NCBI RefSeq assembly: GCF_009712475.1
Contig: NZ_VCJO01000008.1
Location: 1-64,000, forward strand
Direction of reading: 5' to 3'
Length of the DNA: 64,000 bases
Source: Micromonospora sp. CP22
GTDB taxonomy: Bacteria; Actinomycetota; Actinomycetes; Mycobacteriales; Micromonosporaceae
In this document: positions 2,636 through 35,306 of the stretch, one piece after another
Position numbering within the stretch: position 1 is the first letter of the stretch
Layout of the letters: each line of letters opens with the position of its first letter
Position numbers and translations under genes: made by a program
Notes under the pieces: generated by a model
Seen by the model: only the letters and a program-made list of their open reading frames with translations
What the model was told of the DNA's origin: nothing
The model's database searches: none

Positions 2636-3170
2636 TGGGCCTGCCTGGTGACCCTTGTCGGCGAAGGTCATCGCGTTCGGGTCAGCGCGTCGATCATGCG
2701 GGCTGCGGTCAGGTCATGGACTGAGCCGGTAGCGCTGGCGAAGCCCAGATGAGGCGGTCGGCGGCGTCGGAGATGACCTGGACGTTCATGTCGTGGTGCT
2801 TGCGTTTCCCGGAGTGGTACGGCTTCTGGTCGGCGAGGCGGTCGATCGGGGTCAGGGTGCCGTCGCAGATCGCGTACGCCAGTAGGCGGATCCGGTCGAT
2901 GGCGGTGGTCAGGTCGTCGGCGGTCGCCGCGAGTGGGGCTATCGCTTCCTGCGCGTACCGCCAGGCGGTGCTCACGCCGACGGTGAGCCTGGCAGCCAGC
3001 CGGGTGTAGGTGTCACCGTTGCGCAGGTGAGCCAGGGCGAGTAGTGCCTGCCGTTCCGCGTCGAGGCGTCGCCACCCGGATCGGCGCTGGTTGCGGTGGC
3101 TGCGGATGCGGTCAGCGAGGTGGTTCAAGGTCCGGCTGGACAGCGAGATCGTGGACGGGTAAGGCAGCAC
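2636..3170 (-). pseudogene. Frameshifted IS5-family (DDE) transposase remnant
   Basis: The intact first 153 residues start LPYPSTISLSSRTLNHLADR, with an HTH region (GDTYTRLAARLTVGVSTAWRY), and continue with CDGTLTPIDRLADQKPYHSGKRK, carrying the first catalytic Asp, and VISDAADRLIWASPALP. These are classic parts of actinomycete IS5-group transposases. After LPAQ the frame shifts: SVHDLTAARMIDALTRTR stop is in a second frame and MTFADKGHQ in a third, so the catalytic domain is broken. The second Asp (HD) lies beyond the first shift and the final Glu region is lost. The element is dead. The 284 bases between the preceding gene and this remnant hold no supported gene. Confidence 0.8.
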
Positions 3171-3640: not shown

Positions 3641-4215
3641 GCCTCGTTCCGGTGCCAGTGACGACCATCTGTGCGGGTGTGCTCTTCATGCCTTTTTCGT
3701 GTGATCTACATGGGCGTGTATGCAGATCTAACCTGTTGCCTCGCTGGCGGCTGCTGGTAGCGTCGAGAACTGTTCCGCCGAAAACCGACAAGTTATGGCG
3801 ATGGGTCCGCGCCGATCTGCTCGGCTCGCGGTTTGTTTCTGGAGACGGACTGTGTCGCGTCGATATGTAACTGCGGATATGTCCCGGGAAGAAGTGGCGA
3901 GGACATCGTTTTCATCCCCGCCTGCTGTTCCAGCCGGACCGTGCCGGGAATCGCCGCACGCTGCGTGCCGCGGCTGCGGACCGGCCGAGATCGACAGGCG
4001 CTTGAGTCGACTGCCGCCGGGTGCCCGACCTCGGCGGGACCGGCTGCGTCGCGGCCGGTCTGTGTGTCCCCGACCTCGCGCCAACGGGCCGCCCGCCCAC
4101 CGGGCCGAGTCGAGACGCGGCCGCGCGCCCACCACACCTGCGGCTCGTCGGCGCGGTCCCAGCCGGCGCGGGCCAGTACCGCCGGAGTCCAGAGTCGTCA
4201 CAGGAAGAGGATGAG
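3641..4215. other. Intergenic region ahead of the biosynthetic cluster
   Basis: No gene supported on either strand; the open frames are short, shift often and lack ribosome binding sites. The promoter for the plus-strand hydrolase/polyketide operon should lie here, but I see no convincing -35/-10 pair. Confidence 0.4.
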
Positions 4216-5082
4216 ATGTCGAATTTCGAGAGTCTGTCCCGGCTGGACCTCTCCTACCCGGAGGATGTCCAACGCATCCGTACCCGGGCGGACGTAGAGC
4301 TCTATTACGAGGTCCGCGGCGAGGGTACCCCGATCACGCTGCTGAACCACTTCCTGATGAGCGCCCCGCTGTGGCGGGTGTTCACCGAGGATCTGGCGCG
4401 TAGCTATCGCCTGATCAGCTACGACCTGTGCAACCACGGTGCCTCCTCGCACGTGGCCGAGGAACCGACCTGGGCCGAGCACGTCGACGACCTGGTCGCG
4501 TTGCTCGACGCCCTCGAAATCGAGTCGACGTACCTGATCGCGGCGTCGGCCTCCACCGTGCTGGCCCGGGACATGGCGCTGACGCACCCGGACCGGGTCA
4601 AGGGCATGGTGCTGGCCGGTCCGGTCTACGGACCCAAGGGCATGCGGCGCCAGCGGCAGTTGCAGCGGGCCTGGCTGCGGACCATCGAGAGCCACGGCAT
4701 CGTGGGCTTCTACGAGCACCTCTACCCGGAGCTGTTCAGCGCCGAGATGAACGAGGCGCTCGGCACCCCCGGCTTCCTCGGCCTGCGCGAGGCCTTCACC
4801 GCGGTCACCACCCTCGAGGACCTGGTCAACGGGCTGAACCGGTCACTCGTCGACGACCACAAGCCGGAGCAGGCGGCGGCCGTCCAGGCGCCGACGCTGA
4901 TCGTGGTCGGCGACGACGATCTGCTGCTGAGCCCGACCGGTGCCCGGGAACTGGCCGAGCAGTTCCCCAACGGCAGCTACGAGATCATGCCGCGCGCCGG
5001 TCACCAGCCCTTCCTCGACGACGCCCCGGGATTCCAGGCGATCGTCCGCAAGTTCGTCGACGAGGTGCAGTCGCGCGCCTGA
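4216..5082 (+). CDS. Alpha/beta hydrolase with an atypical nucleophile elbow
   Basis: 288 residues from the ATG at 4216, preceded by GGAAGAGG. The alpha/beta-hydrolase core is clear: LISYDLCNHGASS, IAASASTVLARDMA for the nucleophile turn, VVGDDDLLLSP for the acid strand and RAGHQPFLDD with the catalytic His. The elbow reads A-A-S-A-S where most members have G-x-S-x-G, so the Ser is present but both flanking glycines are replaced. It is the first gene of the plus-strand operon, 31 bases before the polyketide synthase. It could release, edit or cyclise the polyketide-derived product; a non-hydrolytic role is possible given the elbow. The family call is firm; the role is inferred from position. 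Confidence 0.85.
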   Translation: MSNFESLSRLDLSYPEDVQRIRTRADVELYYEVRGEGTPITLLNHFLMSAPLWRVFTEDLARSYRLISYDLCNHGASSHVAEEPTWAEHVDDLVALLDALEIESTYLIAASASTVLARDMALTHPDRVKGMVLAGPVYGPKGMRRQRQLQRAWLRTIESHGIVGFYEHLYPELFSAEMNEALGTPGFLGLREAFTAVTTLEDLVNGLNRSLVDDHKPEQAAAVQAPTLIVVGDDDLLLSPTGARELAEQFPNGSYEIMPRAGHQPFLDDAPGFQAIVRKFVDEVQSRA

Positions 5083-5113: not shown

Positions 5114-8100
5114 GTGGCGGATCCTGGAGACATCGCGGTGATCGGCATGGCCTGCCGGTTCCCCGGTGGTATCGATTCCCCGGAAAGTCTGTGGAACCTG
5201 ATCGCGAACGGCGGCGACGTGATCACCGAGATTCCCGCGGACCGATGGGACGCGGATGAGCACTATGACGCCGAGCAGGGGGTGCCGGGCCGTTCGGTGT
5301 CGCGCTGGGGCGGCTTCCTGACCGACGCCGGAGGCTTCGACGCGAAGTTCTTCAAGATCGCCGAGCGGGAGGCGCTCGCCACCGACCCGCAGCACCGGGT
5401 CCTGCTGGAGACCGCCTGGGAGGCGGTCGAACGATCCGGAACACCGCCGTCCGCGCTCGCCGGCACCCGCACCGGCGTCTTCGTCGGCATCGCCCACGGC
5501 GACTACTCGGTGGTCACCCACGGGGTACGGAAGATCCACCCGTACTGGTTCACCGGCACCGCCTTCAGCATGGCCTCCGGGCGGATCTCGTTCGCGTTGG
5601 ACCTGGCCGGTCCGTCGCTGAGCGTCGACACGGCCTGCTCCTCGGGCCTGACCTCGGTGCACCAGGCGTGCATGAGCATCCGCTCCGGCGAGAGCGACAT
5701 GGCCCTGGCCGGTGGCGTCATGCTGATGCTGATCCCGGAGCCCGCAGCCGGCGCGTCCGGGCTCGGCATGCTGTCCCGCAGCGGCAGGTGCCGGCCCTTC
5801 GACAGGTCCGCCGACGGCTTCGTCCGGGCGGAGGGCTGCGGCATGGTGTTCCTGAAGCGGGCGACCGACGCGTTGGCCGACGGCGACCACATCCTGGCGG
5901 TGATCAAGGGCATCGCGACGAACCAGGACGGTCACACCGAAACCATCACCATGCCGTCGCAGGTCGCGCAGGCCGCGGTGCACCGGGCCGCGCTGGCCGA
6001 CGCCGGGATCACCCCGGAGCAGGTCGGGATGGTGCAGGCGCACGGCACGGGCACGCCCGTCGGTGACCCGATCGAGTTCCGCGCCCTGGCCGAGGTCTAC
6101 GGCCAGGGCGCCAGCCCCTGCGCGGTGACCTCCGTCAAGTCGAATCTCGGTCACACCGAGTCGGCCGCCGGCACCGCCGGGCTGATCGCCACCGTGCTGG
6201 CGTTGCAGCATGGCGTCGTACCCGGGACGCTGCACCTCGAGGAGCTCAACCCCGAGATCAGCGCGTTGAACACCCGGCTCTTCGTGCCCGGCAAGTCGAC
6301 GCCGTGGCCGGACGTTCCCGGGCCCCGGCGAGCGGGCGTCTCCTCGTTCGGCATGTCCGGCACCAACGTCCACGCCGTGGTCGAGGAAGCGCCCCGGACT
6401 CGGCCGGTCGCGGACAACCGGTCGCGGCGATCCGCTGCGCAGCTGGTTCCGCTGTCGGCCAGCGCGCCGGAGGAACTGGGCCCGACCGCCGAGCGGATAG
6501 CGGACTGGCTGGCCGTCCACGAGGACGTCACCCTCGCCGATCTCGGATACACCCTGGCACGGCGGCGCGAGCACCGCGCGTTCCGTACCGCCGTGATCGC
6601 TTCGGACCGGCCGGAACTGATCGCCGCGCTGCGCGGCGTGGCCGACCAGGTGGCCGAGCGGCCCCCGGCACCGGTGGTCGGTGACGACTCGCGCGGCCCG
6701 GTCTGGGTCTTCTCCGGCCAGGGTTCGCAGTGGGCCGGCATGGGTGCCGCGCTCCTGGCGACCGAGCCCGAGTTCGCCGCCATGGTCGCCCGGGTGGAGC
6801 CGCTCATCCAGCGCGAGTCGGGCTTCTCGGTGACGGCCGCGATGACCGACCCGGAGACGGTGACCGGCATCGACCGGGTGCAGCCGACGCTCTTCGCCAT
6901 GCAGGTAGGGCTCGCCGCAGCCTGGCGTGCGGCGGGCGTGCGACCAGCCGCCGTCATCGGGCACTCGCTGGGCGAGGTGGCGGCCTCCGTGGTGTCCGGT
7001 GCGCTCTCCCTCGACGACGGCGTCAAGGTGATCTGCCGTCGGTCCCGGCTGTGCGCCCGACTGGCCGGTGCCGGCGCGATGGCCTCCGTCGAACTTCCCG
7101 CCGAACGCGTCGAGCAGGAGCTGGCCGCCTACGACGACGTCGTGGTGTCGGTCGTCGCCTCACCGGAGTCCACGGTGATCGGTGGCGCCACCGACCGGGT
7201 CCGGGAACTGATCGCGGCGTGGGAGAGCCGGGGCGTGATGGCACGCGAGGTCGCCGTCGACGTCGCCTCGCACTCGCCGCAGGTGGACCCGATCCTGGCC
7301 GAGCTGGCCGAAGTCCTCGCCGACCTCACGCCGGCCGCCGGGACGGTGCCCGTCTACGGCACCGCGCTCGACGACCCGCACACGCAGCCGGTCCCCGACG
7401 CCGCCTACTGGGTCGACAACCTGCGCCAGCCGGTCCGGTTCGGCGCTGCGGTGCTGGCCGCGCTCGAGGACGGTCACCGCGTCTTCCTGGAGCTGTCCCC
7501 GCACCCGCTGCTCACCCGGGCGGTGGAACAGTGCGCCCGGTCGTCCGGGCTGCCCGCAGCCGCCCTGCCGAGTATGCGGCGCGGCCAGGAGACCCCGTAC
7601 GGCCTGCTCACCAGCCTGATCGAGGTGCATGCGGCCGGTGGCGGGGTCGACTTCTCGCTGCTGCATCCGGACGGTGACCTCGTCGACGCGCCACTGCCCA
7701 CCTGGGCACGCCAGCACCTGCTGGTCCGGTCCGACCAGTCCCCGCCAGCACACACGGTACGGGTGCATCCGCTGCTCGGCGCGCATGTCCGGCTCGATGA
7801 GAGCCCGGAGAGGCACGCCTGGCAGTCCGACGTCGGTACGGCGGTGCTGCCGTGGCTTGTCGACCACCGGGTCGGTGACGTTGCCGCCTACCCCGGCTCG
7901 GCGCACTGCGAGGCGGCGCTCAGCGCGGCCGGAGAGGTCTTCGGTGGCGGGGGCGAGGTGCACGGGCTGCGCTTCGAACGCATGCTGCTGCTCAGCGACC
8001 ATGACGAGGTCACCGCGTCCGCCACGGTGACCGCGCCGGGCCAGGCCCGGTGGGAGGCGACCACGTCGGACAACGGCGAACGGGTCCGGCTGGCCTCCGC

Positions 8101-11100
8101 CACGCTGCACCCGTCAGCGGACGTCGCCGAACCCGAGCCGATCGACATCGACCTGCTCCTCGACGAGCATTCCGATCCGTTGCCGGGGGACGAGCTGCGG
8201 CGGATCGTCGGTGAGCGGGGCATCCAACCCGGACCGGCGTTCGCCGGTGTCACCACCGTCCACCGCCTGCCTGGCCCGGACGGACGGACCGTGCTCGGTG
8301 AGGTCGAGCTGCCGTCCGCGCTGCGCAGCGGAAACGACGGTTTCGGTATCCACCCGGCGCTGCTGGACGCCTGCTTCCAGTGCGTGATCGCGATGCCTGC
8401 GGTGGCGCAGGAGGTGGCGGACGGCGGCCTGATGGTCCCGCTGGAGGTAGGACGGATCCGCCAGTGGGCACCGTCCGCCGCCGCACGGTACTGCCATCTG
8501 CGACTGGTGTCCCACGACAGCACCCGGGTGGTCGCTGACATCCAGCTGACCGATCGCTACGGCGCTGTCCTGCTGACCGTGGAGGGCCTGGTCATGGGCA
8601 CCAGCGGCAGCGACGAGGAGAGTGCCGGGCAGATCCTGGCCGAGCGGCTGCTCACCGTGGGCTGGCACCGCACCGACCCGCCGCGACCCGCCGAGAGCCG
8701 GTCCGACGACTCGTGGCTGATCCTCGCGCCGGACGCGGCGGTCTGCGAGCCGGGCGAGCTCGCCACGGCCCTGCGCGGGCAGGGCGGCAAGGCCGAAGTC
8801 CGTCCGTGGTCGTCCGACGGCACTGCGCCCCTCGTGCCGGAGGGCACCTGGCGTGGCGTCGTGCTGCTCTGCCCACGACCGGCCGGACCTGCCGATGAGG
8901 ACGGCATCGCCCGCGGCCGCGACCTGGTGCAGGCGGTTGTCGGGGTCGCGCAGGAACTCGCCGCGTTCGGTGGCACACCGCCCCGGCTCTACGCGGTCAC
9001 CCAGTCCGCACAGCAGGTCCTGACCGGCGACGTGGTCAACCTCGAACACGCCGGGGTACGCGGCCTGCTGCGCGTGATCGGCGCCGAGTTCCCCGATGTC
9101 CGGGCCACCCAGATCGACGTCGACGAGGCGGTGGTCGAGGCGCTCGCCGCCGAACTCGCCGCCGACAGCCCCGAGGACGAGACCGCCTGGCGCGCCGGGC
9201 ACCACTACACCGCCCGGCTCGAGCGGGCCCCGCTCGCCGTCGGGGAACGGCACCGAACGGTCATCGACCCCGATGCCGACGGTTACCGGCTGGAGATCCG
9301 CCACCCGGGCGACCTGGACTCGCTGGAGCTGGCCGTCGTCGCGCGCCGTAGCCCCGGCCCGGGCGAGATCGAGATCGCGATCGGCGCCGGCGGCATCAAC
9401 TTCGTCGACGTACTGGTGGCGCACGGCAACGGCTTCAGCTACGAGGGGGAGATCCCCGGCTTGGGCGTGGACTGTGCCGGGACCGTGGTCCGGGTCGGCG
9501 ACGAGGTCACCGGGTTCGCGGTCGGCGATCGGGTGATGACCGCCGTCGGTGTCACCGACGGCGCGTGGGGGAGCCACGTCACTGTCGACGCCCGGCTCGC
9601 CGCCCCGCTGCCGTCCGGGCTGAGCATCGAGGAGGGGGCGGCGACCCCTGCGGTCTACGCCACCGCCTGGTACGCCCTGCACGAGCTGGCCCGGCTACGG
9701 CCCGGCGAGCGCGTCCTCATCCACTCGGCCACCGGTGGCACCGGGCAGGCCGCGGTTGCCATCGCCCGCCGGATCGGCGCGGAGATCTTCGCGACCGCCG
9801 GCAGCGCGGACCGCCGGGAATGGCTGCGCTCGACAGGTATCACGCACGTCTACGACTCCCGCAGCCTGGAGTTCGCCGACCAGATCCGCGAGGACACCGG
9901 CGGTGCGGGCGTCGATGTGGTGCTGAACTCGCTCACCGGCGCGGCGCAGCGGGCGAGCCTGGATCTGCTGACCTTCGGCGGCAGGTTCGTCGAGATCGGC
10001 AAACGTGACATCTACGGCGACTCCCGGCTGGACCTTGCCCCGTTCCGGCGCAACCTGGCCTTCTACAGCGTCGATCTGGAGCTGATGGCAGGTGTTGATC
10101 CGGGACTGCTCGGTCGGCTGCTCCGCGAGGTGGCGGAGCTGATGAGCCGCGGCGAGCTGCCGGCACCGATGGTCACCGCGTTTCCGCTGAGTGAGGCGGC
10201 GACCGCGATCCGGACCATGGCGGCGGCCCAGCACACCGGCAAGTTCGTGCTCACCACAGCGGTCGAGTCCGGAACGCCTGTGGTGGTGCCGCCGGACCGG
10301 TTCCCGGCGTTCCGCGCCGACGGCGCGTACCTCATCACCGGCGGACTGGGCGGCCTCGGTCTGCGGCTGGCCCGGCACCTCGCCGAGGCGGGCTGCGGCC
10401 GGATCGTGCTGAACTCGCGGTCCGCGCCGAACGCCGAGGCGGCCGCGGCGATCGCCGCGCTACGCGAGGCCGGGGCCGACGTTCAGGTGGAACTGGGCGA
10501 CATCGCGGACCCGGGCACCGCGGTCCGGCTGGCCGCCGCCGCCCGGGCCACCGGGCTGCCCCTGCGTGGGGTGCTGCACGCCGCGGCGGTGGTCGAGGAC
10601 GCCACAGTGCCGAGCATCACCGCCGAGTTGGTGCACCGGGACTGGGCGCCCAAGACGTACGGGGCCTGGCATCTGCACCACGCCACGATCGACGACGACC
10701 TGGACTGGTTCTGCTGCTTCTCGTCGGCCGCCGCGCTGCTCGGGTCCCCGGGTCAGGGCGCCTACGCCGCCGCGAACAGCTGGCTGGACGGGTTCGCGCA
10801 CTGGCGGCGCGCGCAGGGGTTGCCGGTGACCGCGATCGCGTGGGGCGCCTGGGCTGAGATCGGCCGCGGCGCGGTTCTCAGCGAATCCGGTGACACCACG
10901 ATGATCACGCCTGACGAGGGGGTCCGCGCCTTCGACACCCTGCTGCGGCACACCAGGACCTTCACCGGGTACGTCCCGCAGTCCCGGGCGCCGTGGCTGA
11001 CCTCGCTCGCCCGCCGCAGTCCGTTCGCGGCGGCGTTCCAGGACAGCCAGCCAGCGCAGTCGCAGTCGTCGGCGTTGCTCAGCGAAGTGCGGGCACTGCC

Positions 11101-11353
11101 GGCCGGTGAGCGGGTCGGCTGGCTGAGCAAGTTCCTGGCCCGGGAGGCCGGCGCGATCGTCCGTGGGAATGTCGACCCCGGCCGGCCGTTCCACGACTAC
11201 GGTCTGGACTCACTCGGCAATCTGGAGCTGCGGACCAGGGTCGAGACCAGCCTGGGTATCCGGGTCGCCCCCAAGGCGATCGCCACCAACAACTCGGCCC
11301 GGGCGCTGGCCCAGCACCTGGCCGAGCTGCTCGGCGAGCAGGAGGCGCGGTGA
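5114..11353 (+). CDS. MAS-like type I reducing polyketide synthase (KS-AT-DH-ER-KR-ACP)
   Basis: 2079 residues from the GTG at 5114 behind GAGGAGGA. Domains in order: KS (about 5-430; Cys175 in DTACSSG, His in QAHGTGTPVGD and NLGHTESAAG); AT (about 535-830; Ser618 in GHSLGEVAAS, specificity motif VASHSPQVD); DH (about 885-1165; His918 in DHRVGDVAAYP, Asp1085 in LLDACFQ); ER (about 1395-1715; HSATGGTGQAAVAIA); KR (about 1735-1905; TGGLGGLGLRLA, GAYAAAN); ACP (Ser2033 in YGLDSLGNLE). The order, the size and the VASH motif match mycocerosic acid synthase-like enzymes, which are iterative and use methylmalonyl-CoA. All catalytic residues are present, so a fully reduced, methyl-branched chain is expected. 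No loading module or thioesterase is attached; release is probably by the overlapping reductase gene. Methylmalonyl specificity is inferred from the motif. Confidence 0.93.
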   Translation: MADPGDIAVIGMACRFPGGIDSPESLWNLIANGGDVITEIPADRWDADEHYDAEQGVPGRSVSRWGGFLTDAGGFDAKFFKIAEREALATDPQHRVLLETAWEAVERSGTPPSALAGTRTGVFVGIAHGDYSVVTHGVRKIHPYWFTGTAFSMASGRISFALDLAGPSLSVDTACSSGLTSVHQACMSIRSGESDMALAGGVMLMLIPEPAAGASGLGMLSRSGRCRPFDRSADGFVRAEGCGMVFLKRATDALADGDHILAVIKGIATNQDGHTETITMPSQVAQAAVHRAALADAGITPEQVGMVQAHGTGTPVGDPIEFRALAEVYGQGASPCAVTSVKSNLGHTESAAGTAGLIATVLALQHGVVPGTLHLEELNPEISALNTRLFVPGKSTPWPDVPGPRRAGVSSFGMSGTNVHAVVEEAPRTRPVADNRSRRSAAQLVPLSASAPEELGPTAERIADWLAVHEDVTLADLGYTLARRREHRAFRTAVIASDRPELIAALRGVADQVAERPPAPVVGDDSRGPVWVFSGQGSQWAGMGAALLATEPEFAAMVARVEPLIQRESGFSVTAAMTDPETVTGIDRVQPTLFAMQVGLAAAWRAAGVRPAAVIGHSLGEVAASVVSGALSLDDGVKVICRRSRLCARLAGAGAMASVELPAERVEQELAAYDDVVVSVVASPESTVIGGATDRVRELIAAWESRGVMAREVAVDVASHSPQVDPILAELAEVLADLTPAAGTVPVYGTALDDPHTQPVPDAAYWVDNLRQPVRFGAAVLAALEDGHRVFLELSPHPLLTRAVEQCARSSGLPAAALPSMRRGQETPYGLLTSLIEVHAAGGGVDFSLLHPDGDLVDAPLPTWARQHLLVRSDQSPPAHTVRVHPLLGAHVRLDESPERHAWQSDVGTAVLPWLVDHRVGDVAAYPGSAHCEAALSAAGEVFGGGGEVHGLRFERMLLLSDHDEVTASATVTAPGQARWEATTSDNGERVRLASATLHPSADVAEPEPIDIDLLLDEHSDPLPGDELRRIVGERGIQPGPAFAGVTTVHRLPGPDGRTVLGEVELPSALRSGNDGFGIHPALLDACFQCVIAMPAVAQEVADGGLMVPLEVGRIRQWAPSAAARYCHLRLVSHDSTRVVADIQLTDRYGAVLLTVEGLVMGTSGSDEESAGQILAERLLTVGWHRTDPPRPAESRSDDSWLILAPDAAVCEPGELATALRGQGGKAEVRPWSSDGTAPLVPEGTWRGVVLLCPRPAGPADEDGIARGRDLVQAVVGVAQELAAFGGTPPRLYAVTQSAQQVLTGDVVNLEHAGVRGLLRVIGAEFPDVRATQIDVDEAVVEALAAELAADSPEDETAWRAGHHYTARLERAPLAVGERHRTVIDPDADGYRLEIRHPGDLDSLELAVVARRSPGPGEIEIAIGAGGINFVDVLVAHGNGFSYEGEIPGLGVDCAGTVVRVGDEVTGFAVGDRVMTAVGVTDGAWGSHVTVDARLAAPLPSGLSIEEGAATPAVYATAWYALHELARLRPGERVLIHSATGGTGQAAVAIARRIGAEIFATAGSADRREWLRSTGITHVYDSRSLEFADQIREDTGGAGVDVVLNSLTGAAQRASLDLLTFGGRFVEIGKRDIYGDSRLDLAPFRRNLAFYSVDLELMAGVDPGLLGRLLREVAELMSRGELPAPMVTAFPLSEAATAIRTMAAAQHTGKFVLTTAVESGTPVVVPPDRFPAFRADGAYLITGGLGGLGLRLARHLAEAGCGRIVLNSRSAPNAEAAAAIAALREAGADVQVELGDIADPGTAVRLAAAARATGLPLRGVLHAAAVVEDATVPSITAELVHRDWAPKTYGAWHLHHATIDDDLDWFCCFSSAAALLGSPGQGAYAAANSWLDGFAHWRRAQGLPVTAIAWGAWAEIGRGAVLSESGDTTMITPDEGVRAFDTLLRHTRTFTGYVPQSRAPWLTSLARRSPFAAAFQDSQPAQSQSSALLSEVRALPAGERVGWLSKFLAREAGAIVRGNVDPGRPFHDYGLDSLGNLELRTRVETSLGIRVAPKAIATNNSARALAQHLAELLGEQEAR

Positions 11354-12465
11354 CGGCGATCCTGTTGACCGGGGTGACGGGGTCCCTCGGCGGCCATCTC
11401 GCCGCGGCGCTGCTCGCCCAGCCACACCCGGTGATCTACTGCCTGGTCCGGGCGACCGGACCGGCGGCGGCCGATCGCCGGCTGCGGGAGCGGATGGCAG
11501 AGGTCGGCGTGGACGATCCGCAGCGTCTGATCGCGGTGCCGGCCGACCTGGATCGTCCCGGTCTCGGCATGCCACCGAAGGTCTGGAACGACCTGGCCGA
11601 ACGGGTCTCGCGGATCTATCACAGCGCCGCGTCCGTGCACATGACCGCGCCGTACCACGATCTGGCACCGTCGAATGTGGGCGGAACCAGGGCGCTCGTG
11701 GAACTGGCCACGGCCGCCGGTCGGCCGGTCGGCTTCCACTTCGTCTCCACGATCGCGGTGTTCGCCGATGCGGCCAGGGCCGGACTGTCCCGGGTGGACG
11801 AGATGACCCCGCCGTCGATGGCGACGTCCGGGCACCTCGGCTACCCGCGATCGAAGGTGGCCGCCGAACGGGTCGTCACCCGGGCCGCCGAGCGTGGCGT
11901 GACGGCCACGATCTATCGGCCGGGTCTGGTGACCGGGCATTCCGGCACCGGTGGCACCTCCACGTCCGACCTGCTCATGCCGCTGCTGAGGGCGGCCGTC
12001 GCGGTCGGGGCGGTACCCGAGCGGGTCGAGGCGGTGCCGATGGACGCTGTCGATCAGGTCGCCGGCAACCTGGCCCGGCTGTCCGTCGGGCCGTCGGCCG
12101 CCGGGCGGGCGTATCACCTGGTGAAGCCGCAGCCGGTGGCGCTCACCCATGGATTCGACGCGCTGCGCCGGGCGGGGTATCCGCTGGACTCCCTGCCCGG
12201 CCCGGTCTGGTGGGAACGGGCGACCGAACGGGCCACCCATCCGGACGTGGCACCGCTGATTCAGATGGGGAAGATCGGGCGGCGGATGCTGGGCCTGGAG
12301 CCGGCGTATCCGATGCCGGAGATCAGCGCGGAGCACACCTGGGCGGCCCTGCGCGCTGCGGAGCCGGCGCCGCCGTCGGTGCCGCTGGACGACGCGTTCT
12401 TCGACCGCCTCATCGCGTACGGCTTCAGCCAGGCGATCCGGGAGCGGCCGATCCTGACCCGCTGA
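11350..12465 (+). CDS. Stand-alone thioester reductase-like NAD(P)-dependent protein
   Basis: 371 residues, starting at a GTG that overlaps the polyketide synthase stop (GTGA at 11350-11353), so the two are translationally coupled. The N-terminus has the Rossmann motif LLTGVTGSLGGHL. IYHSAASVHMTAPY, FHFVSTIAVF and the Tyr165/Lys169 pair in YPRSKVAAE follow; these are hallmarks of extended SDR thioester reductases (NAD_binding_4 type) that release carrier-bound chains as aldehydes or alcohols. The C-terminal part (YHLVKPQPVALTHGFDALRRAGYPL) fits the same family. Usually such domains are fused to the synthase; here one is separate. The likely substrate is the acyl chain on the synthase ACP. Whether it makes one or two reductions cannot be told from sequence. 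Confidence 0.9.
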   Translation: MTAILLTGVTGSLGGHLAAALLAQPHPVIYCLVRATGPAAADRRLRERMAEVGVDDPQRLIAVPADLDRPGLGMPPKVWNDLAERVSRIYHSAASVHMTAPYHDLAPSNVGGTRALVELATAAGRPVGFHFVSTIAVFADAARAGLSRVDEMTPPSMATSGHLGYPRSKVAAERVVTRAAERGVTATIYRPGLVTGHSGTGGTSTSDLLMPLLRAAVAVGAVPERVEAVPMDAVDQVAGNLARLSVGPSAAGRAYHLVKPQPVALTHGFDALRRAGYPLDSLPGPVWWERATERATHPDVAPLIQMGKIGRRMLGLEPAYPMPEISAEHTWAALRAAEPAPPSVPLDDAFFDRLIAYGFSQAIRERPILTR

Positions 12466-12626: not shown

Positions 12627-14207
12627 TCAGCTCGTGGTCGTCAGCGAGGCGGCCTGCGCCACGAGCGCCTTCCGGTCGATCTTGCCGTTGAGGCTCAGCG
12701 GAAGCTTCGCCACGTGCACCAGGAAACGCGGGGTCATGTACGTGGGCAGCCGCCCCGCCAGGAAGTCCCGCAACTCCGGATCGGAGACGGCCTCCCCGGT
12801 GAAGAACCCGGCCAGCTCCACGATGCCGTCGTCGGCCGGGCAGGGCACCACGGCGGCCTCTTCCAGGCCAGGGTGCGCCCGCAGGGCCGCCTCGATGTCA
12901 CCCGGCTCGATCCGGTAGCCGTGCACCTTCACCTGGTTGTCGACACGTCCCAGGTAGACCGCCACTGCGTCGTCGAACCGGACCCGGTCACCGGTGCGGT
13001 ACCAGTGCCGCTCGTCCGGTCGTCCGGGACCGTCGTGGGTGCCGAGGAGTTCACCGTCCCACAGCACGAACCGGCCACGGTTGTGCGCGGGATCCAGATA
13101 TCCGTCGAACCGCTGCGGGCCACGGACCAGCAGCTCACCCTCGTCGGCGGCGGTGCCGTCATCGTCGAGTACCACGTATTCGACGGTGGGGTAGACCCGC
13201 CCGATCGGGACGGTGCCGTTCGGCGTGGCCGGCTGCTCGGTCGGATCCTGGGGCAGCAGGTGGGTCAGGCAGGTCACCGTCGCCTCGCTGGGTCCGTACA
13301 CGTTGGCCACCGCGCTGTTCGGTGCGGCCTCCCGCCAGGCCCGTACGTGCTCGGGCGTCAGCGCCTCACCGCCGAAGATGCTCCACCGCAGGTCCGGCAG
13401 CCCGCCGGTGGTCAGGTCGCCCAGCCACCTGGCCATGGTGACCGATGCCGGCGTCGAGACCCAGTGCGTGATGCCCTGCCCGGCGATGAACTTCGCCGGG
13501 GCGAGCAGGTCCGTCTTCGTCGGCACCACCACCGTCCCACCGGACGCCCACGCGGTCCACAGCGGGATCATCGACATGTCCCAGGACAGGTCGGCCGTCT
13601 GGGCGACCCGGGCACCGGCGCGGTCGGCGAACATCGGCACGAAGTGCCCGACCCAGGCGGCGAAGTTGCGGTGCCGGATCGGCACGCCCTTCGGGCTGCC
13701 GGTCGACCCGGACGTGAAGATGATGTAGGCCAGGTCATCGACGTCCGGGGTGCCGGCCTCGACGGACGGGCCGTCACCGGTGAAGGTGGCGGCGTCGTCC
13801 GGCATCGACAGCAGCCGGACGCCGGTGGCGGCCCGCACCTGCGCGGCGAGTTCCCGCTCGGCGTCGGCGTGCACAAGCACGTCCAGCCCGGCCAGCCGGG
13901 CGATCTCCGCGTTGCGGACCGGCGGGAACTCGGTGTTGAGACAGATCACCGTGTCACCCAGCCGCAGGCTGGCCAGGTAGGCGACATAGGTGGCCGCCAC
14001 CGTCCGGGAGGCGAGGACACCGATCCGGCGCGGGGGACGCCCGGTCCGGTCTCCTGCCGTCCCGGCGATGGCGGCGGCGGCCCGGCCCGCGGCCGCATCG
14101 AGTTCGGCGTACGTGAAGTCGGCACCGGCCACGCTCAGGGCGGTGCGGGTGGGGTGGGCGCGTACGGTGGCGCCGAACCACTCGTACATCGCCGGAGTCG
14201 GGCTCAC
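12627..14207 (-). CDS. Free-standing amino-acid adenylation enzyme (NRPS A domain)
   Basis: 526 residues, starting at a GTG that overlaps the carrier-protein stop. Core adenylation motifs are all present: A3 IIFTSGSTGSPKGVPIRH, A5 NVYGPSEATVTCL, A7 WYRTGDRV, A8 GRVDNQVKVHGYRIEPGDIE, and the A10 lysine in LNGKIDRKALV. The A4 region reads SWDMSMIPLW; its Asp occupies the place of the residue that binds the substrate amino group in amino-acid-activating domains, so an amino acid rather than a fatty acid is likely. It should form an aminoacyl-AMP and load the adjacent carrier protein. Discrete adenylation enzymes of this kind load beta-amino acids in macrolactam pathways. The exact substrate is not readable by eye. 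Confidence 0.92.
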   Translation of the reverse strand: MSPTPAMYEWFGATVRAHPTRTALSVAGADFTYAELDAAAGRAAAAIAGTAGDRTGRPPRRIGVLASRTVAATYVAYLASLRLGDTVICLNTEFPPVRNAEIARLAGLDVLVHADAERELAAQVRAATGVRLLSMPDDAATFTGDGPSVEAGTPDVDDLAYIIFTSGSTGSPKGVPIRHRNFAAWVGHFVPMFADRAGARVAQTADLSWDMSMIPLWTAWASGGTVVVPTKTDLLAPAKFIAGQGITHWVSTPASVTMARWLGDLTTGGLPDLRWSIFGGEALTPEHVRAWREAAPNSAVANVYGPSEATVTCLTHLLPQDPTEQPATPNGTVPIGRVYPTVEYVVLDDDGTAADEGELLVRGPQRFDGYLDPAHNRGRFVLWDGELLGTHDGPGRPDERHWYRTGDRVRFDDAVAVYLGRVDNQVKVHGYRIEPGDIEAALRAHPGLEEAAVVPCPADDGIVELAGFFTGEAVSDPELRDFLAGRLPTYMTPRFLVHVAKLPLSLNGKIDRKALVAQAASLTTTS

Positions 14208-14452
14208 GGGTCACGCCTGCCGTCGGCCTGCTCGGCGAACACTGTGTAGATGCCGCGTACCGTGCGCTCCTCGAAGAGCGTGCCGACCTCCGGACGGCGG
14301 CCGGCGTGCTGCTCCATCGCCACGAACAGCCGCACCCGGTGCAGCGACCGCCAGTTCACCTCCTGATCGAAGCTGTTCTCCAGATCCGGATCGGCCAGCG
14401 GCAGCCGCAGTTCGTCGCGGACGATGCGGATGAACTCAGCCTGCCCGATCAC
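14204..14452 (-). CDS. Discrete acyl/peptidyl carrier protein
   Basis: 82 residues from a GTG that overlaps the KAS III stop; its own stop overlaps the adenylation start (GTGA both times). The fold pattern is that of a carrier protein: FDQEVNWRSLHRVRLFVAMEQ aligns with the usual D-S-L helix, with Ser in WRSLH as the probable phosphopantetheine site. The usual Gly and Asp before the Ser are Trp and Arg here, which is unusual. It is expected to carry the aminoacyl group made by the adenylation enzyme and to present it to the KAS III-like protein. A pantetheinyl transferase is not encoded in the window. Confidence 0.8.
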   Translation of the reverse strand: MIGQAEFIRIVRDELRLPLADPDLENSFDQEVNWRSLHRVRLFVAMEQHAGRRPEVGTLFEERTVRGIYTVFAEQADGRRDP

Positions 14453-15483
14453 TCCGGGAGCTCCGCAGTGATCTCGATAACCGCGGCGCTGAACATGAAG
14501 CCGGTGCCCGAGCCGGCGAGCACGACCCGGTCGCCGGGCTTGGCCTTCCGGGCCTCCAGCAGGTGGGTCAGCCCGGCGAACTGGTCGCCCGCGCCCAGGT
14601 GCCCACAGCGGCGGCCCCAGTCCCAGGTGGTACGGGAGATGTCAATACCGAACGCCTTGCGCGCGTCCCAGTCGGTGAGTGCCAGCCCCTGGTTCGGGAA
14701 GATCCACCAGGCGACGTCCGTGGGCTCCAACCCGGCCTCGGCCAACGCCTGCTCGATGACGAGCATCTCCTTCTGCTGCAACGCCTGCACCATGGGGACG
14801 TAGATCTCGGGGCCCTTCTCGGCCAGATAGGCGTGCACCCGGGCGTTGATGTTCACCGGCCAGCCGTTCCCGCCGCTCACGTCGCTCCACGGCTCCGCGC
14901 CGATCTGGATGTCGCCGTAGGTGGTGTCGCCGGTGGTCGCGCTGCTCACCAGCCGGGCGATTCCTGAGGACCGGCAGAGCAGCAGCGCGGTGCCGCCGTC
15001 GCCGAAGAGCATCCCGGAGGCGGTGGCGTAGCGGTTGTAGCCGGGCTCCACGAACCGGTCGGCGGTGGTGAGCAGCGCCGCGGAGGTGTCCGGTCGGGCA
15101 GTCAGATAACCCGCCGCCAGCTCCAGGGCGGCCATGCCGCCGTTAGACGCCTGGCGCATTTCCACGGCGAAGCCGTCGCCGCGGACGGTGCGGCCCTGGA
15201 TGTACGCGGCCGGTGCGAAGTCGTCCAGGCCCTGGTGCGCGATGTAGGAGTGGACCACCAGGTCGACCTGCGAGGCCCGGTCACCGGCACGGGCCACCGC
15301 CGCTGCCGCCGCTCGCACCGCCAGGTCGATGGTGGGTCCCTCGTCGTCCACCCGGGTGGCGAGGAAGCCGCTCGCCTCATTCTCCTTCGCCGCGTAACGC
15401 CCGTCGGCCACGGCGCTCTCGGTGGTCTCCTCACGACCCAGAGTCATTGCCACGGACCCGATGTAAAGGTCATTCCAAAGCAC
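14449..15483 (-). CDS. KAS III-like acyltransferase with Ser in place of the catalytic Cys
   Basis: 344 residues from a GTG at 15483 behind GGGGAGG. It has the thiolase-fold layout of 3-oxoacyl-ACP synthase III, but the nucleophile position reads VEMRQASNGGMAALELA: Ser113 where condensing enzymes have Cys. The usual H-Q-A-N motif is FPNQGLAL and the usual Asn motif is CGHLGAGDQFAGL, with His295 and Asp300. That G-H-L-G-A-G-D-Q pattern is what I recall from CerJ/ChlB-type members, which transfer acyl groups to oxygen or nitrogen rather than condensing; DpsC is a known member with Ser. The likely job is to move the carrier-bound aminoacyl group onto an acceptor such as the polyketide-derived alcohol. 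The acyltransferase role is inferred. Confidence 0.85.
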   Translation of the reverse strand: MLWNDLYIGSVAMTLGREETTESAVADGRYAAKENEASGFLATRVDDEGPTIDLAVRAAAAAVARAGDRASQVDLVVHSYIAHQGLDDFAPAAYIQGRTVRGDGFAVEMRQASNGGMAALELAAGYLTARPDTSAALLTTADRFVEPGYNRYATASGMLFGDGGTALLLCRSSGIARLVSSATTGDTTYGDIQIGAEPWSDVSGGNGWPVNINARVHAYLAEKGPEIYVPMVQALQQKEMLVIEQALAEAGLEPTDVAWWIFPNQGLALTDWDARKAFGIDISRTTWDWGRRCGHLGAGDQFAGLTHLLEARKAKPGDRVVLAGSGTGFMFSAAVIEITAELPE

Positions 15484-15514: not shown

Positions 15515-16594
15515 TCAGTCCTCGCCGTCGTTGTAGACCACGTCGAGCGTTCCGGCGGAGTTGACAGTGGCCGTGGCCGGCAGCCGGTAGGAAGGGCTCC
15601 AACGCAGCCGATCCTCGAGCCGGTACGACGTCCGGAGCGTCAACTTCCGGCCGTTCTTCGCAACGATGCTGCCCTCGTAGGGGGTGACTTTTCCGATGTC
15701 GGTCATCACGGTGAACATCGGTTTCGCCAGGCCGCTGAGATACCCGCTGCCGGAGATTTCCGAGGCGAGCCGCAGCCCTTTCGCCACGGTCGTACGGAAC
15801 TCGTCCGTGCCCACCATCGGAACTGCGTGGAAGAGGTAGTGCGGGATGAACCGCAGCGTCCGCTGCCGGTCGTAGAGCTCGATGAGCGTCTCGGCCTCGT
15901 CATTGACGCCCTTGAGCAGGACGTTCTGGCTGTAGAGACGCACGCCCCGCTGCTGCAGGGCGCCGAATACCTCGACCGCCTCCGGCTGCAACTCGAACGG
16001 ATGGTTGACCTGCACACCGATCTCGAACTGGAAACGGTCGGCGAACTCCTCGAACACCCGGTAGGTGTCCGCGGTGAACGCGCCCGGGTTCTGCACCGGC
16101 AGCCGGGTGCCCATCCGGACGGTGATGATGTTCTCCGCGCTGGTGGCCACCGCGGCCAGCAGCTCGTTGAGCTTGCGCGGCGAGATCAGGGGGTCTCCGC
16201 CGGTGATCAGGATCTCGCGCAGGTCCTCGTCACGCTTCAGGAAGTCCGCGATGGCGCCGATCTGATCCGTGCCCAAGGTGTGCGGATCGTAGAGGCCGCG
16301 GACGCAGAACACGCACTCGCTGGCACAGGCGGAGAGCATGTCGATGACGACGACCCGTCGGTAGAGGCGCTCCAGGCCCTTGGGAAAGTCACTCGACATG
16401 ACCGCGTCGAAGTGCCGCGTGTTGTTGCCGAAACTCGGGCCGGTCGACGGCATTCGGAAATACTGGTTGTAGATGCCGCGATAGGCGCCGGAATTCTCCC
16501 CGTGCTGCTTTTTCGCGCGTTCCAGCAGCTCCTGCGTGTACTTGTGAACCCGAGGCTTCTGTGTTTCGGTGATTACTCGGAGAAGTCCAGCCAT
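15515..16594 (-). CDS. KamA-family radical SAM aminomutase-like enzyme
   Basis: 359 residues from an ATG at 16594 with AAGGGA upstream. The iron-sulfur motif is ACASECVFC (Cys90, Cys94, Cys97), followed by LITGGDPLIS, QVNHPFE and NVLLKGVND, all typical of the lysine 2,3-aminomutase family. Lys302 in VMTDIGK lies where the PLP lysine sits, but the usual glycine-rich PGGGGK is reduced to TDIGK. The Q-C-D-L segment is HAVP and the Asp before the PLP loop is also missing; in KamA these two Asp residues bind the lysine side-chain amine, so lysine is an unlikely substrate. The length is shorter than KamA (about 416). It probably converts an alpha- to a beta-amino acid for the downstream adenylation enzyme, and heads that operon. 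Confidence 0.88.
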   Translation of the reverse strand: MAGLLRVITETQKPRVHKYTQELLERAKKQHGENSGAYRGIYNQYFRMPSTGPSFGNNTRHFDAVMSSDFPKGLERLYRRVVVIDMLSACASECVFCVRGLYDPHTLGTDQIGAIADFLKRDEDLREILITGGDPLISPRKLNELLAAVATSAENIITVRMGTRLPVQNPGAFTADTYRVFEEFADRFQFEIGVQVNHPFELQPEAVEVFGALQQRGVRLYSQNVLLKGVNDEAETLIELYDRQRTLRFIPHYLFHAVPMVGTDEFRTTVAKGLRLASEISGSGYLSGLAKPMFTVMTDIGKVTPYEGSIVAKNGRKLTLRTSYRLEDRLRWSPSYRLPATATVNSAGTLDVVYNDGED

Positions 16595-16833: not shown

Positions 16834-17457
16834 TCAGCTTTCGGCCCGGTCGATCTGTTGAGCGACGCCGTCGATGAAGACCTGCAGGCCGTAGCGGAAC
16901 CGTTCCCCCGGATCGGCGCCGGTGAGCGCGGCCAGCGCGGCCGAGTGGTGCGTCGACATCTCGGCGTCGAGCTTCTCGATGCGTTGACGCCAGGTGTCAC
17001 CCGCCGGGAGTTCGGCCAGCGCCTGCTCCTCGATCACGTGGCCGAGCACGTAGTAGAAGAGGGCGAAGGCGAGCCACCCGGCCTGGGCGGGCGCCAGGCC
17101 GGCGGTGCAGAGTGCGGTGATCGCGCGGTCGGCGCCGCGCATCGTGTTCAGGCCGGGAGCGAAGGTGCCGCCCACCACCCGGGCACCGTCCCGGTGTGCC
17201 AGCATCGCCGACCGCATCCGGTCACCGAGGACGTACAGCTGCCGGCGCCAGTCGGCCTCCGGCAGCGGATCGCCGAGCCCGTCGACGATCCGGTCCGCCA
17301 GGGCATCGAGCAACGCCTCCTTGTTCGGAAAATGCCGGTAGAGGGCGCTGCCCTGGACATTGAGCGCGGCGCCGAGCCGGCGCATCGTCAGCCCGTCGAT
17401 CCCCTCGGCGTCCAGCAGCTTCAACGCGCCGTCGACCACGTCAGCCTTGCGCAGCAC
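16834..17457 (-). CDS. TetR-family repressor of the adjacent exporter
   Basis: 207 residues from a GTG at 17457, six bases after GAGGAG. The N-terminal HTH (LTMRRLGAALNVQGSALYRHFPNKEALLDAL) is typical TetR/AcrR; the C-terminal part (VVGGTFAPGLN, FYYVLGHVIEEQAL) resembles the tetracycline-repressor ligand domain. It is divergent from the DHA2 exporter, with a 25-bp palindrome in the 126-base gap. By analogy with TetR/TetA, it should repress both genes until the exported compound binds. It ends 240 bases before the aminomutase gene on the same strand, so it could also read through into the biosynthetic operon, but no evidence shows this. Confidence 0.9.
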   Translation of the reverse strand: MLRKADVVDGALKLLDAEGIDGLTMRRLGAALNVQGSALYRHFPNKEALLDALADRIVDGLGDPLPEADWRRQLYVLGDRMRSAMLAHRDGARVVGGTFAPGLNTMRGADRAITALCTAGLAPAQAGWLAFALFYYVLGHVIEEQALAELPAGDTWRQRIEKLDAEMSTHHSAALAALTGADPGERFRYGLQVFIDGVAQQIDRAES

Positions 17458-17583: not shown

Positions 17584-19020
17584 ATGCTCGACTCCCGAAC
17601 CGGCCTGGCACCCCGCGGCGTCGTGCGGCCCAACCTGCCGCTCGGCGTCGTCGTGGCGATCTCCTGCCTGGCCCAGTTCACAGTCGTGCTCGACGCCACG
17701 ATCGTCACGCTCGCGCTGCCCGACATGCGTGCCAGCCTCGACATGTCGGTCAGCCAGCAGCAGTGGGTGGTCAGTGGATACCTCATCGCCTTCGGCGGTT
17801 TCCTGCTGCTGGCGGCCCGGGCCGGTGACCTGTTCGGTTACCGGCGGGTCTTCCTGACCGGCACGGTGATCTTCACCCTGGCCAGCCTCGCCGGTGGACT
17901 CGCCACCAGCCCCTGGATGCTCCTGGTGGCCCGCGTCTTCCAGGGCCTCGGCGCTGCGGCCCTGTCACCCACCAGCCTCAACCTGATCACCGCCAGCCAC
18001 AGCGACGAGGACCGTCGCGAGCGAGCCGTCACGCTGTGGAGCCTGATGGGCGCCCTCTCCAGCGTCGCCGGGCTCATCCTCGGCGGCGTCCTGACCGCCG
18101 GGCTGAGCTGGCACTGGGTCATGTTCGTGAACGTCCCGCCCGGCCTCATCCTGCTCGTCGCCGGCCTGCTCTGGCTGCTGCCTGACCGCGACACCGGCGA
18201 ACGCCGTCGCCTGGACCTCCCGGGTGCGCTCACGGCGACCCTCGGCATCGGTGCCCTGACCTACGGCTTCTCCGAGGTCGCCACCGACGGCTGGACCGAG
18301 ACGAACGTGCTGGTCGCCCTGATCGCCGCCGCCGTGCTGCTGATCGGCTTCGTGGCCGTGGAGGCGAAGAGCCGTCATCCGCTGATTCCGCTGGCCATCT
18401 TCCGCCTCCGCACCGTCAGCATCGGAAACTTCCTGATCTTCTGCATGGGTGTCACGATGACGGCCGGGATGGTCCTGCTCTCCCTGTACTTCCAGGAGGC
18501 GCTCGACTACGACCCGTTCAGCACGGGTCTCTCGCTGCTCCCGATGTCCGCCATCGTGATCGCCGGTGGTCTCGGTGCCCGCCAGCTCCTGCCCAAGGTC
18601 GGCACCCGACCGCTCCTGCTCGCCGGCGGTCTCGTCACGGCCGTGGGCCTGCTCTGGATGACCAGGATGCCGGCGGAGCCGGCCTACCTGACCCACGTCC
18701 TGGGCCCCACCCTGGTGACCGGCCTCGGCATGAGCCTGCTGCTGCCTGCGGCGACGGTGACCAGCACCACCGGTGTGGCACCCGGCGATGACGGCGCAGC
18801 GTCCGGTCTGCTCAACACCTCGCGCCAGATCGGCGGGGCGGTCGGTCTGGCCGTCCTGGTCACCATCGCCACCACGACCACTGAGCGGGCCCTGCCTGAC
18901 ACGACGCCAGTCGAGGCCGTCGTGGACGGATTCCACGCCGCCTTCCTGGTCAACGCCGCTGTGATGCTGGCGGCCACCTTCGTGGCACTAGCCCTGCCGA
19001 GGTCCGGGCGACAGTCCTGA
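17584..19020 (+). CDS. DHA2-family MFS multidrug/metabolite exporter, 14 membrane spans
   Basis: 478 residues from the ATG at 17584 with GAGGAG upstream. The first span carries LDATIVTLALPDM, a signature of the EmrB/QacA (DHA2) group, followed by QWVVSGYLIAFGGFLLLAARAGDLFGYRR, which contains the conserved loop between spans 2 and 3. The hydrophobic profile fits 14 spans in the cytoplasmic membrane and proton-driven efflux. Its position behind a TetR gene with a shared operator and next to the biosynthetic genes suggests that it exports the cluster's product and gives self-resistance. The substrate is inferred from context only. Confidence 0.92.
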   Translation: MLDSRTGLAPRGVVRPNLPLGVVVAISCLAQFTVVLDATIVTLALPDMRASLDMSVSQQQWVVSGYLIAFGGFLLLAARAGDLFGYRRVFLTGTVIFTLASLAGGLATSPWMLLVARVFQGLGAAALSPTSLNLITASHSDEDRRERAVTLWSLMGALSSVAGLILGGVLTAGLSWHWVMFVNVPPGLILLVAGLLWLLPDRDTGERRRLDLPGALTATLGIGALTYGFSEVATDGWTETNVLVALIAAAVLLIGFVAVEAKSRHPLIPLAIFRLRTVSIGNFLIFCMGVTMTAGMVLLSLYFQEALDYDPFSTGLSLLPMSAIVIAGGLGARQLLPKVGTRPLLLAGGLVTAVGLLWMTRMPAEPAYLTHVLGPTLVTGLGMSLLLPAATVTSTTGVAPGDDGAASGLLNTSRQIGGAVGLAVLVTIATTTTERALPDTTPVEAVVDGFHAAFLVNAAVMLAATFVALALPRSGRQS

Positions 19021-28736: not shown

Positions 28737-29591
28737 ATGTCCATGCAAACCGACTCCCCGACGACCGCCGGGGCTCCGAAGGCCGTCGCGGCGCCGGGAA
28801 CCTCCGCGGCGACGACCTATCGGCCCCGCCGACTCCGCAAGCTCGCCTGGGACCTCATCCCGGTGGGGGTCTTCGCGGCCATCGTCGCTCTGTGGGCCGG
28901 CGCGGTGGAGGCGTTTGACATCCCGTCGTACCTGTTGCCCAGCCCGCAGGAAACGTTCGCCCGCATGGCCGACGACTTCCCGCTGTTGTGGGAGAACACC
29001 ACCGTCACGGTCACCGAGATCGTGGCCGGTCTCGGTATCACCATCGTGACGGCCATCCCGCTCGGGCTGATGATCGCGCTCAGTCGCGTCGCCCGGCAGG
29101 TGGTGTACCCGCCGGTCGTCTTCATGCAGCTCGTACCGAAGATCGCGATCGCCCCGCTCTTCGTGGTGTGGATCGGCTTCGGCATCGAGTCCAAGATCCT
29201 GCTCACCGTCCTGATGACCTTCTTCCCGCTCCTGGTGGCGAGCATCAGCGGCTTCCGGATCCTGGACGACCGGATGCTCTACCTGACCAAGTCGATGGGC
29301 GCGTCGCGCTGGCAGACGTTCCGCTTCCTGCGGTTCCCCTCCGCCCTGCCGGTGATCTTCTCCGGGTTGAAGACGTCGGCGACGCTCGCCGCGACGGCGG
29401 CCCTCGTCGCCGAGTTCGTCGGAGCCAACACCGGGTTGGGTTATCTGCTGCTCCAGGGCACGAGCACCCTGGACACCACGCTGATCTTCGCGGTCCTCGT
29501 CGTGCTGACCGTCATCGGAATCGCCCTCAACTACCTCGTCGAGCTGGTCGAGTGGCTGCTGACGCCCTGGCAGCGCGCGCGCAACAACTGA
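28737..29591 (+). CDS. ABC transporter permease, NitT/TauT (SsuC) type
   Basis: 284 residues from the ATG at 28737 with GAAAGG upstream. About six membrane spans; the EAA-type loop that docks the ATPase is visible as YLTKSMGASRWQTFRFLRFPSALP. The family (SsuC/TauC/NitT) imports sulfonates, nitrate, thiamine precursors or aromatic acids. Unusually, the permease gene comes first and is separated from its ATPase gene (31277) by the binding-protein and MaoC genes, but all run in one direction. Together they form the uptake system for the operon's growth substrate. Confidence 0.92.
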   Translation: MSMQTDSPTTAGAPKAVAAPGTSAATTYRPRRLRKLAWDLIPVGVFAAIVALWAGAVEAFDIPSYLLPSPQETFARMADDFPLLWENTTVTVTEIVAGLGITIVTAIPLGLMIALSRVARQVVYPPVVFMQLVPKIAIAPLFVVWIGFGIESKILLTVLMTFFPLLVASISGFRILDDRMLYLTKSMGASRWQTFRFLRFPSALPVIFSGLKTSATLAATAALVAEFVGANTGLGYLLLQGTSTLDTTLIFAVLVVLTVIGIALNYLVELVEWLLTPWQRARNN

Positions 29592-29658
29592 CTGATCACC
29601 CCCTCACCACCCACCACCTCACTAAACGGGACCGACGACGATCCCGGAAAGGAACGAC

Positions 29659-30726: not shown

Positions 30727-30773
30727 GCCCGCAGGCGAACACCGCGCACTGATCTGTGGAAAGGAGGGACCAC

Positions 30774-31280
30774 GTGCCACACGACATCCCGCGGCAAGGG
30801 CTGCTCTACGAGGACCTGTACGTCGGACTCGCATTCCGCAGCCCGGGACGCACCATCACCGACGCCGACGTACTCGGGTTCGCCGCGTTGACCGGTGACT
30901 TCTCCGAGGTGCACACCAGCGACGTCTACGCGAAGGCCAGCCAGTTCGGTCGACGGATCGCGCACGGCATGCTGGGCCTGGCCTACGCACACGGCCTGAT
31001 GTGGCCGCGTACCGAGATGCTGCGCAACACCGCTATCGCATTCCTCGGAATCAAGGACTGGCGGTTCAAGGCCCCGATCTTCATCGGCGACACGATCTTC
31101 GTCGAGTACTCGGTGGCCGAGATGCGCGACAGCGCGTCCAAGCCGACCCAAGCGATCGTGACCTTCGACGTACGCGTCGTCGACCAGGACGGACGTGTCT
31201 GCCAGGAGGGGCAGAAGGTGGAACTGCTGTCCAAGGTCCCCCTCGGCGGCGTCGAAGCGAGCGGAAAGGCACAGTCATGA
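30774..31280 (+). CDS. MaoC-like (hot-dog fold) enoyl-CoA hydratase
   Basis: 168 residues from the GTG at 30774, after an excellent AAAGGAGG. The catalytic stretch ALTGDFSEVHTSDVYA contains the Asp and His of the MaoC/hydratase-2 motif, followed by RIAHGMLGLAYAHGL and FKAPIFIGDTIFVEY, all standard for the single hot-dog family. It should hydrate an enoyl-CoA (or dehydrate a 3-hydroxyacyl-CoA). It is placed between transporter genes and overlaps the ATPase start by ATGA, which ties uptake to metabolism. Confidence 0.88.
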   Translation: MPHDIPRQGLLYEDLYVGLAFRSPGRTITDADVLGFAALTGDFSEVHTSDVYAKASQFGRRIAHGMLGLAYAHGLMWPRTEMLRNTAIAFLGIKDWRFKAPIFIGDTIFVEYSVAEMRDSASKPTQAIVTFDVRVVDQDGRVCQEGQKVELLSKVPLGGVEASGKAQS

Positions 31281-33644: not shown

Positions 33645-33650
33645 TCGGTC

Positions 33651-35261: not shown

Positions 35262-35306
35262 CCCGCCGTCCTTCCCGGCCTCAGACACAGAAAGGTAGAT
35301 CTCATC

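Follow-up and report, generated by a model that had tools for sequence, protein, structure and literature searches.

The KamA-like protein encoded in this Micromonospora contig belongs, as judged from its residues and predicted fold, to a new subfamily of the KamA-type radical SAM enzymes. Sequence comparison gives good support to the view that it is no lysine 2,3-aminomutase, because the replacements of both lysine-binding aspartates of KamA are real and have become fixed in a branch of the family that stands apart. The changed residues, the separate branch and the amino-acid-attaching enzymes encoded nearby suggest that it probably makes a different, unusual amino acid. Our preferred reading, to which we assign a probability of about 0.45, is that of a PLP-dependent radical SAM aminomutase acting on an amino acid that is neutral and probably aliphatic; the product of the enzyme would be adenylated, loaded on an acyl carrier protein (ACP) and transferred. 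No description of this KamA branch was found in the open literature that was searched, and one may exist elsewhere.

Organization of the gene cluster

The features of the cluster found in the window (the whole stretch of 64,000 nucleotides that was analysed) are listed in Table 1. The KamA-like ORF starts with ATG, has GC fractions of 0.63/0.42/0.87 at the three codon positions, which are of the coding type, and its product shares 99% identity with a Micromonospora andamanensis protein. The genes for the KamA-like protein, the KASIII-like acyltransferase, the ACP-like protein and the adenylation enzyme are collinear, with a gap of 31 nt after the KamA gene and overlaps of 4 nt among the other three. 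The thioester reductase (TR), polyketide synthase (PKS) and alpha/beta hydrolase genes lie on the opposite strand, and the TetR and MFS genes are located upstream of the KamA gene. The cluster is of the antibiotic type. The initial annotation had placed the KamA gene next to an adenylation gene; such a gene is present in the neighbourhood, but three genes downstream, with the KASIII and ACP genes in between.

Table 1. Features of the KamA-like gene and of the surrounding cluster (positions in the window).
Feature	Position	Strand	Evidence
KamA-like radical SAM protein, 359 aa	15515..16594	-	Pfam Radical_SAM PF04055; NCBIfam; AlphaFold
CxxxCxxC [4Fe-4S]/SAM motif (C90, C94, C97)	16304..16327	-	alignments
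R99, equivalent of KamA R134	16298..16300	-	alignments; invariant across all aligned relatives
V258, replacing KamA D293	15821..15823	-	alignments; V in 13/14, S in 1/14 branch members
MTDIGK (M297 replacing D330, short loop, K302 = PLP lysine K337)	15689..15706	-	alignments
ERLYRR (E75, R76, R79, R80), branch-specific, at the KamA HRYPDR site	16355..16372	-	alignment
D85; D or E in every branch member, mostly hydrophobic in other KamA proteins	16340..16342	-	alignment
KASIII-like acyltransferase, DpsC/ChlB3/CerJ type, Ser for catalytic Cys (RQASNGG)	14449..15483	-	PDB matches DpsC, ChlB3, CerJ
Acyl/peptidyl carrier-like protein, 82 aa, candidate phosphopantetheine Ser in VNWRSL	14204..14452	-	homologues L001, L002
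Discrete amino-acid adenylation enzyme, pocket D-M-I-V-I-G-V-V-T read by motif	12627..14207	-	TIGR01733
Thioester reductase (TR)	11350..12465	+	TIGR01746 229 bits, above cut-off
Single-module type I PKS, KS-AT-DH-ER-KR-ACP	5114..11353	+	Pfam
Alpha/beta hydrolase	4021..5082	+	Pfam
TetR-family regulator	16834..17457	-	Pfam; retained beside cassette in S. kobensis
MFS exporter	17584..19020	+	Pfam; retained beside cassette in S. kobensis

The KASIII-like protein matched DpsC (PDB 4xs7) with an E-value of 3.1e-59, and its RQASNGG motif corresponds to RQVSNGG in DpsC, so that it is of the DpsC type in both respects. The adenylation enzyme scored 313.7 bits with TIGR01733, marginally below the cut-off of 317.4; in the PDB it matches NRPS A domains best, and it has the A-domain fold and an aspartate for the amino group (D235, the D in WDMS). 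No match was obtained for the ACP-like protein in Pfam or NCBIfam, and homologues are found at the same place in loci L001 (99% identical) and L002 (71%). Its candidate phosphopantetheine serine is in WRSL, versus the usual DSL.

Two other regions of the window were noted. A remnant of a transposase helix-turn-helix (HTH_Tnp_4; 2709-3170, minus strand) lies immediately outside the cluster. A separate collinear set of genes (28737-40259, plus strand), likely catabolic, encodes an ABC permease, an NMT1/THI5-like binding protein, MaoC, SDR and enoyl-CoA hydratase proteins, two kinds of CoA-transferase, DUF993, an SBD_N/NBD_C kinase-like protein and an epimerase.

Family assignment and predicted fold

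Radical_SAM was the only Pfam match of the KamA-like protein. All the KamA-family models of NCBIfam matched it, each below its cut-off: 116.4 bits versus 199.2 for the KamA family (TIGR00238), 93.4 versus 525.4 for AblA (TIGR03820), 107.6 versus 369.3 for EpmB (TIGR03821), 115.4 versus 600 for the arginine 2,3-aminomutase BlsG (TIGR04468) and 119.6 versus 650 for glutamate 2,3-aminomutase (TIGR04368). At the positions of KamA residues 293 and 330 it has V/M, as opposed to D/E in EpmB and D/T in BlsG; glutamate 2,3-aminomutase is set apart by score alone. Judged by these profiles, the protein is kin of the KamA family and falls outside the curated TIGR00238 model.

The only match in a sequence search of the PDB was the lysine 2,3-aminomutase 2a5h. 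An AlphaFold run with five sequences gave a pLDDT of 54 and was discarded; after addition of KamA relatives from viral contigs, the 53-sequence alignment gave a model with a pLDDT of 89.0 and a pTM of 0.88. In agreement with the relation to lysine 2,3-aminomutase drawn in the initial annotation, a structure search with this model returned 2a5h as the top match (Z 29.9, rmsd 3.0 over 295 residues), with the runner-up at Z 14.9. The hallmarks of the KamA family, namely the CxxxCxxC motif, the KamA TIM-barrel fold, the GGD motif and the lysine of the GK motif, are all present.

Active-site residues

The first reading of this gene had reported a CxxxCxxC motif, a PLP lysine and the replacement of both aspartates with which KamA holds the side chain of lysine, and the alignments bear this out. 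The cysteines are C90, C94 and C97, and the lysine is K302 (codon at 15689-15691, minus strand). Three comparisons, with AblA, by profile and with the 2a5h sequence of the PDB, agree in placing V258 opposite D293 and M297 opposite D330, the two residues that we take to contact the lysine side chain in KamA, so the acidic pair with which AblA holds lysine is absent. K302 lies opposite K337, and R99 opposite R134 (presumably the alpha-carboxylate arginine), in the pairwise, multiple and profile alignments, except that pairwise HMMER shifts K302 by one residue. The K302 of the GK motif is invariant, the phage homologue included.

A shortened PLP loop had also been reported. The loop (MTDIGK) is indeed two residues shorter than that of KamA (DAPGGGGK), but the same length is found in BlsG (TTKIGK) and in relatives that keep D330 (e.g. 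DTEIGK, DTKYGK). Because these working relatives have the same length, the short loop is not diagnostic, and it was rejected as a sign of altered function.

KamA R112 and R116, which we assume to be PLP phosphate contacts, align with L77 and V81. The nearby R76, R79 and R80 may substitute for them; a one-residue register shift putting R76 and R80 at these positions is conceivable, but the profile alignment has no gap there.

A separate and rare branch

Maximum-likelihood analysis of 38 sequences grouped 14 of them, from actinobacteria and one phage contig, with a support of 100/100 on a long stem (1.77 changes per column). This branch contains two actinobacterial subgroups with ~40% mutual identity, and the phage sequence is closer to the first. 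M297 is found in all 14 members, and V258 in 13, with a serine in locus L039. Among 27 other KamA-family sequences, position 293 is D (23) or R (4) and position 330 is D, S, T, E or Y. Read from these alignments, the replacement of D293 and D330 is a fixed character of the branch, neither an isolated mutation nor chance. Other residues that mark the branch are R60, E75, L77, R79, R80, D/E85, Q168, E191, R245, H252 and P259. Among them are three conserved acids at positions other than 293 and 330, namely E75, D/E85 and E191.

The branch is rare. Close members were detected in 3 genomes out of a class-wide sample of 394 (source genome included), 3 of 300 from the source organism's own family, 5 of 392 from the genus holding S. 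netropsis and 4 of 346 from the family holding S. kobensis, while a phylum-wide sample of 396 genomes searched with a strict threshold yielded the source genome only. A scan of viral contigs with the narrow branch alignment gave no match; with a broad KamA alignment it gave 73 loci, of which one belongs to the branch.

Gene neighbourhoods of the relatives

Genes for amino-acid-attaching enzymes adjoin the branch KamA gene in most of the loci read. Adenylation, ACP and KASIII partners are found beside it in the window, L001, L002 and L037. The four-gene unit and the TetR/MFS pair are shared with Saccharopolyspora kobensis at 65-80% identity (KamA 80%, KASIII 72%, ACP 71%, adenylation enzyme 67%), while TR (44%) and PKS (~35%) have diverged, as expected of a unit that serves different scaffolds. 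NRPS genes adjoin the KamA gene in a Paractinoplanes locus (L004) and in L038 (C-A-T-TR). In S. netropsis (L003) it precedes two ATP-grasp genes and the other cassette genes are absent. Locus L017 contains a three-gene unit of KamA, PGM1-type peptide ligase and MFS exporter, with a homologous layout in L018 and L019. In the stretches read of L039, L020 and L008, no amino-acid-attaching gene lies directly beside the KamA gene; that of L039 has PKS and FAD-oxidoreductase genes upstream and a glycosyltransferase gene downstream.

Read by motif, the pocket codes of the A domains are hydrophobic in S. kobensis (DLIILGVVT) and the L038 NRPS (DVIFFTIIY) as well as in the window (DMIVIGVVT), the two loci with a pocket resembling that of the window being close relatives. 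The A domain neighbouring the KamA gene in L004 has an Asn-like pocket (DLTKVGEVG).

The phage member of the branch, encoded on a 112-kb contig, comes directly after an adenylation-like gene, a hexapeptide transferase gene and a PIG-L deacetylase gene; the adenylation-like gene had no Pfam match and is so named from a reading of its sequence. The collinear run (L121:5341-10457, IMGVR_UViG_3300029305_001653; same genes in L113), on a phage contig that also bears structural-looking and topoisomerase-like genes, comprises these genes, a crAss001_48-related gene and a glycosyltransferase-like gene, and is possibly a sugar or glycan modification pathway.

Two further arrangements were observed. The KamA/ligase/MFS unit of L017 (7921-19254, one Streptomyces genome) is flanked by near-identical inverted copies of ~1.08 kb that bear an IS-like transposase gene, resembling a composite transposon. 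On the Mesorhizobium plasmid pMspAR10a (L030:5980-8337), a KamA variant with R293/S330 adjoins a D-Ala-D-Ala-ligase-like ATP-grasp gene; related R/S variants in Amycolatopsis (L118) and S. cellulosae (L119) lie beside PLP aminotransferase or enoyl-CoA hydratase genes.

Proposed function and alternatives

In the mechanism that we propose, an alpha-amino acid would be bound as a PLP aldimine on K302 with its carboxylate on R99, the SAM-derived 5'-deoxyadenosyl radical would take a hydrogen, and the amino group would shift from C2 to C3. The product would be activated by the adenylation enzyme and then loaded on the small ACP, and the Ser-type DpsC-like acyltransferase would pass the aminoacyl unit to the PKS/TR polyketide. 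The retained equivalents of R134 and K337 argue for a PLP-bound amino acid, and since the side-chain positions are Val and Met, the substrate is probably neutral and aliphatic, not lysine. The carboxylate-activating enzymes associated with the protein argue for an amino-acid product that is attached elsewhere, and the recurrence of this association makes it plausible that the adenylation enzyme uses the product of the KamA-like protein.

With the counterparts of R112 and R116 lost and new charged residues conserved, there is real scope for a polar substrate or for chemistry of another kind. With the KamA fold and probably PLP kept, the protein could be an amino-acid radical enzyme other than a 2,3-aminomutase, catalysing for instance a dehydrogenation, elimination or epimerisation. 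The long stem points that way, as do about ten branch-specific residues, including the change of the KamA H111-R116 stretch to ERLYRR and of Y287 to H252, and the equivalog cut-offs of the KamA-family models, none of which is reached. We consider this reading doubtful, since the overall fold and the R134 and K337 equivalents are retained, and the characterised relatives known to us (KamA, EpmB, BlsG and glutamate 2,3-aminomutase) are 2,3-aminomutases.

A 2,3-aminomutase acting on a polar or charged amino acid, with the side chain held by R60, E75, D/E85, E191, R245 and H252, is unlikely. Members of the branch conserve these residues, which mostly differ outside it, the first five being charges with which the pocket could be less hydrophobic than V and M imply, and an Asn-type A domain is found beside the KamA gene in L004; against this, both known side-chain positions are V and M, and the A pockets are hydrophobic in the window, L002 and L038. 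A radical SAM enzyme of KamA ancestry that works without PLP would fit the loss of the basic R112 and R116 in a straightforward alignment, but is very improbable given the invariant K302 and the presence of R76, R79 and R80, one residue off, which could stand in. The KamA fold and family match would also suit a lysine 2,3-aminomutase or EpmB of the ordinary kind with tolerance of the substitutions, but this reading can be practically dismissed in view of the D/D of AblA and D/E of EpmB at these positions, the bit scores far under the equivalog cut-offs, the separate branch and the D at both positions in the second KamA-like protein of this genome (L006).

Returning to the aminomutase for a neutral, aliphatic substrate, we tentatively suggest that the branch is an undescribed KamA-fold subfamily that turns aliphatic amino acids into beta-amino acids (or carries out a new PLP/radical reaction), acts as a portable supplier for PKS, NRPS and ATP-grasp systems and has a phage homologue. 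A clearly separate branch that has hydrophobic residues where the side chain is held and is reused by many pathways would, if real, extend the set of beta-amino acids accessible by radical chemistry and aid the prediction of products for clusters that are currently unreadable. Because it is defined by few residues and frequently travels with an adenylation or ligase partner, its substrate and chemistry are directly testable.

Comparison with known systems

To our knowledge, the radical SAM aminomutases of known substrate act on lysine, glutamate or arginine. The KamA-like protein shares with KamA/AblA of C. subterminale (2a5h) the fold, the Cys triad, the R134 and K337 equivalents, GGD and NHxxE, and differs from it in having V for D293, M for D330, L for K/R112, V for R116, H for Y287 and F for Y290, in the shorter loop and in a different C-terminal region. 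BlsG (blasticidin S) has in common with it the short xTxxGK loop and a secondary-metabolite setting, and in Kitasatospora an ATP-dependent carboxylate-amine ligase gene lies two genes downstream of BlsG; in contrast, BlsG has D293, K/R112 and a T at 330, and clusters with AblA-type proteins.

There is also a likeness to incednine, in which a radical SAM enzyme, IdnL4, likely a glutamate 2,3-aminomutase whose product leads to the starter unit, provides the amino acid used by an adenylation enzyme and a carrier protein (PMC11284099). This likeness is one of pathway, and unlike in the incednine pathway a DpsC-type acyltransferase follows here. The best PDB scores of the adenylation enzyme in the window are with ordinary A domains and 6akd (which we take to be IdnL7), not with beta-aminoacyl-ACP synthetases. 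The KASIII-like protein is homologous to DpsC, ChlB3 and CerJ and has a Ser nucleophile as DpsC does; DpsC primes with propionyl-CoA, whereas the presumed donor here is an aminoacyl-ACP.
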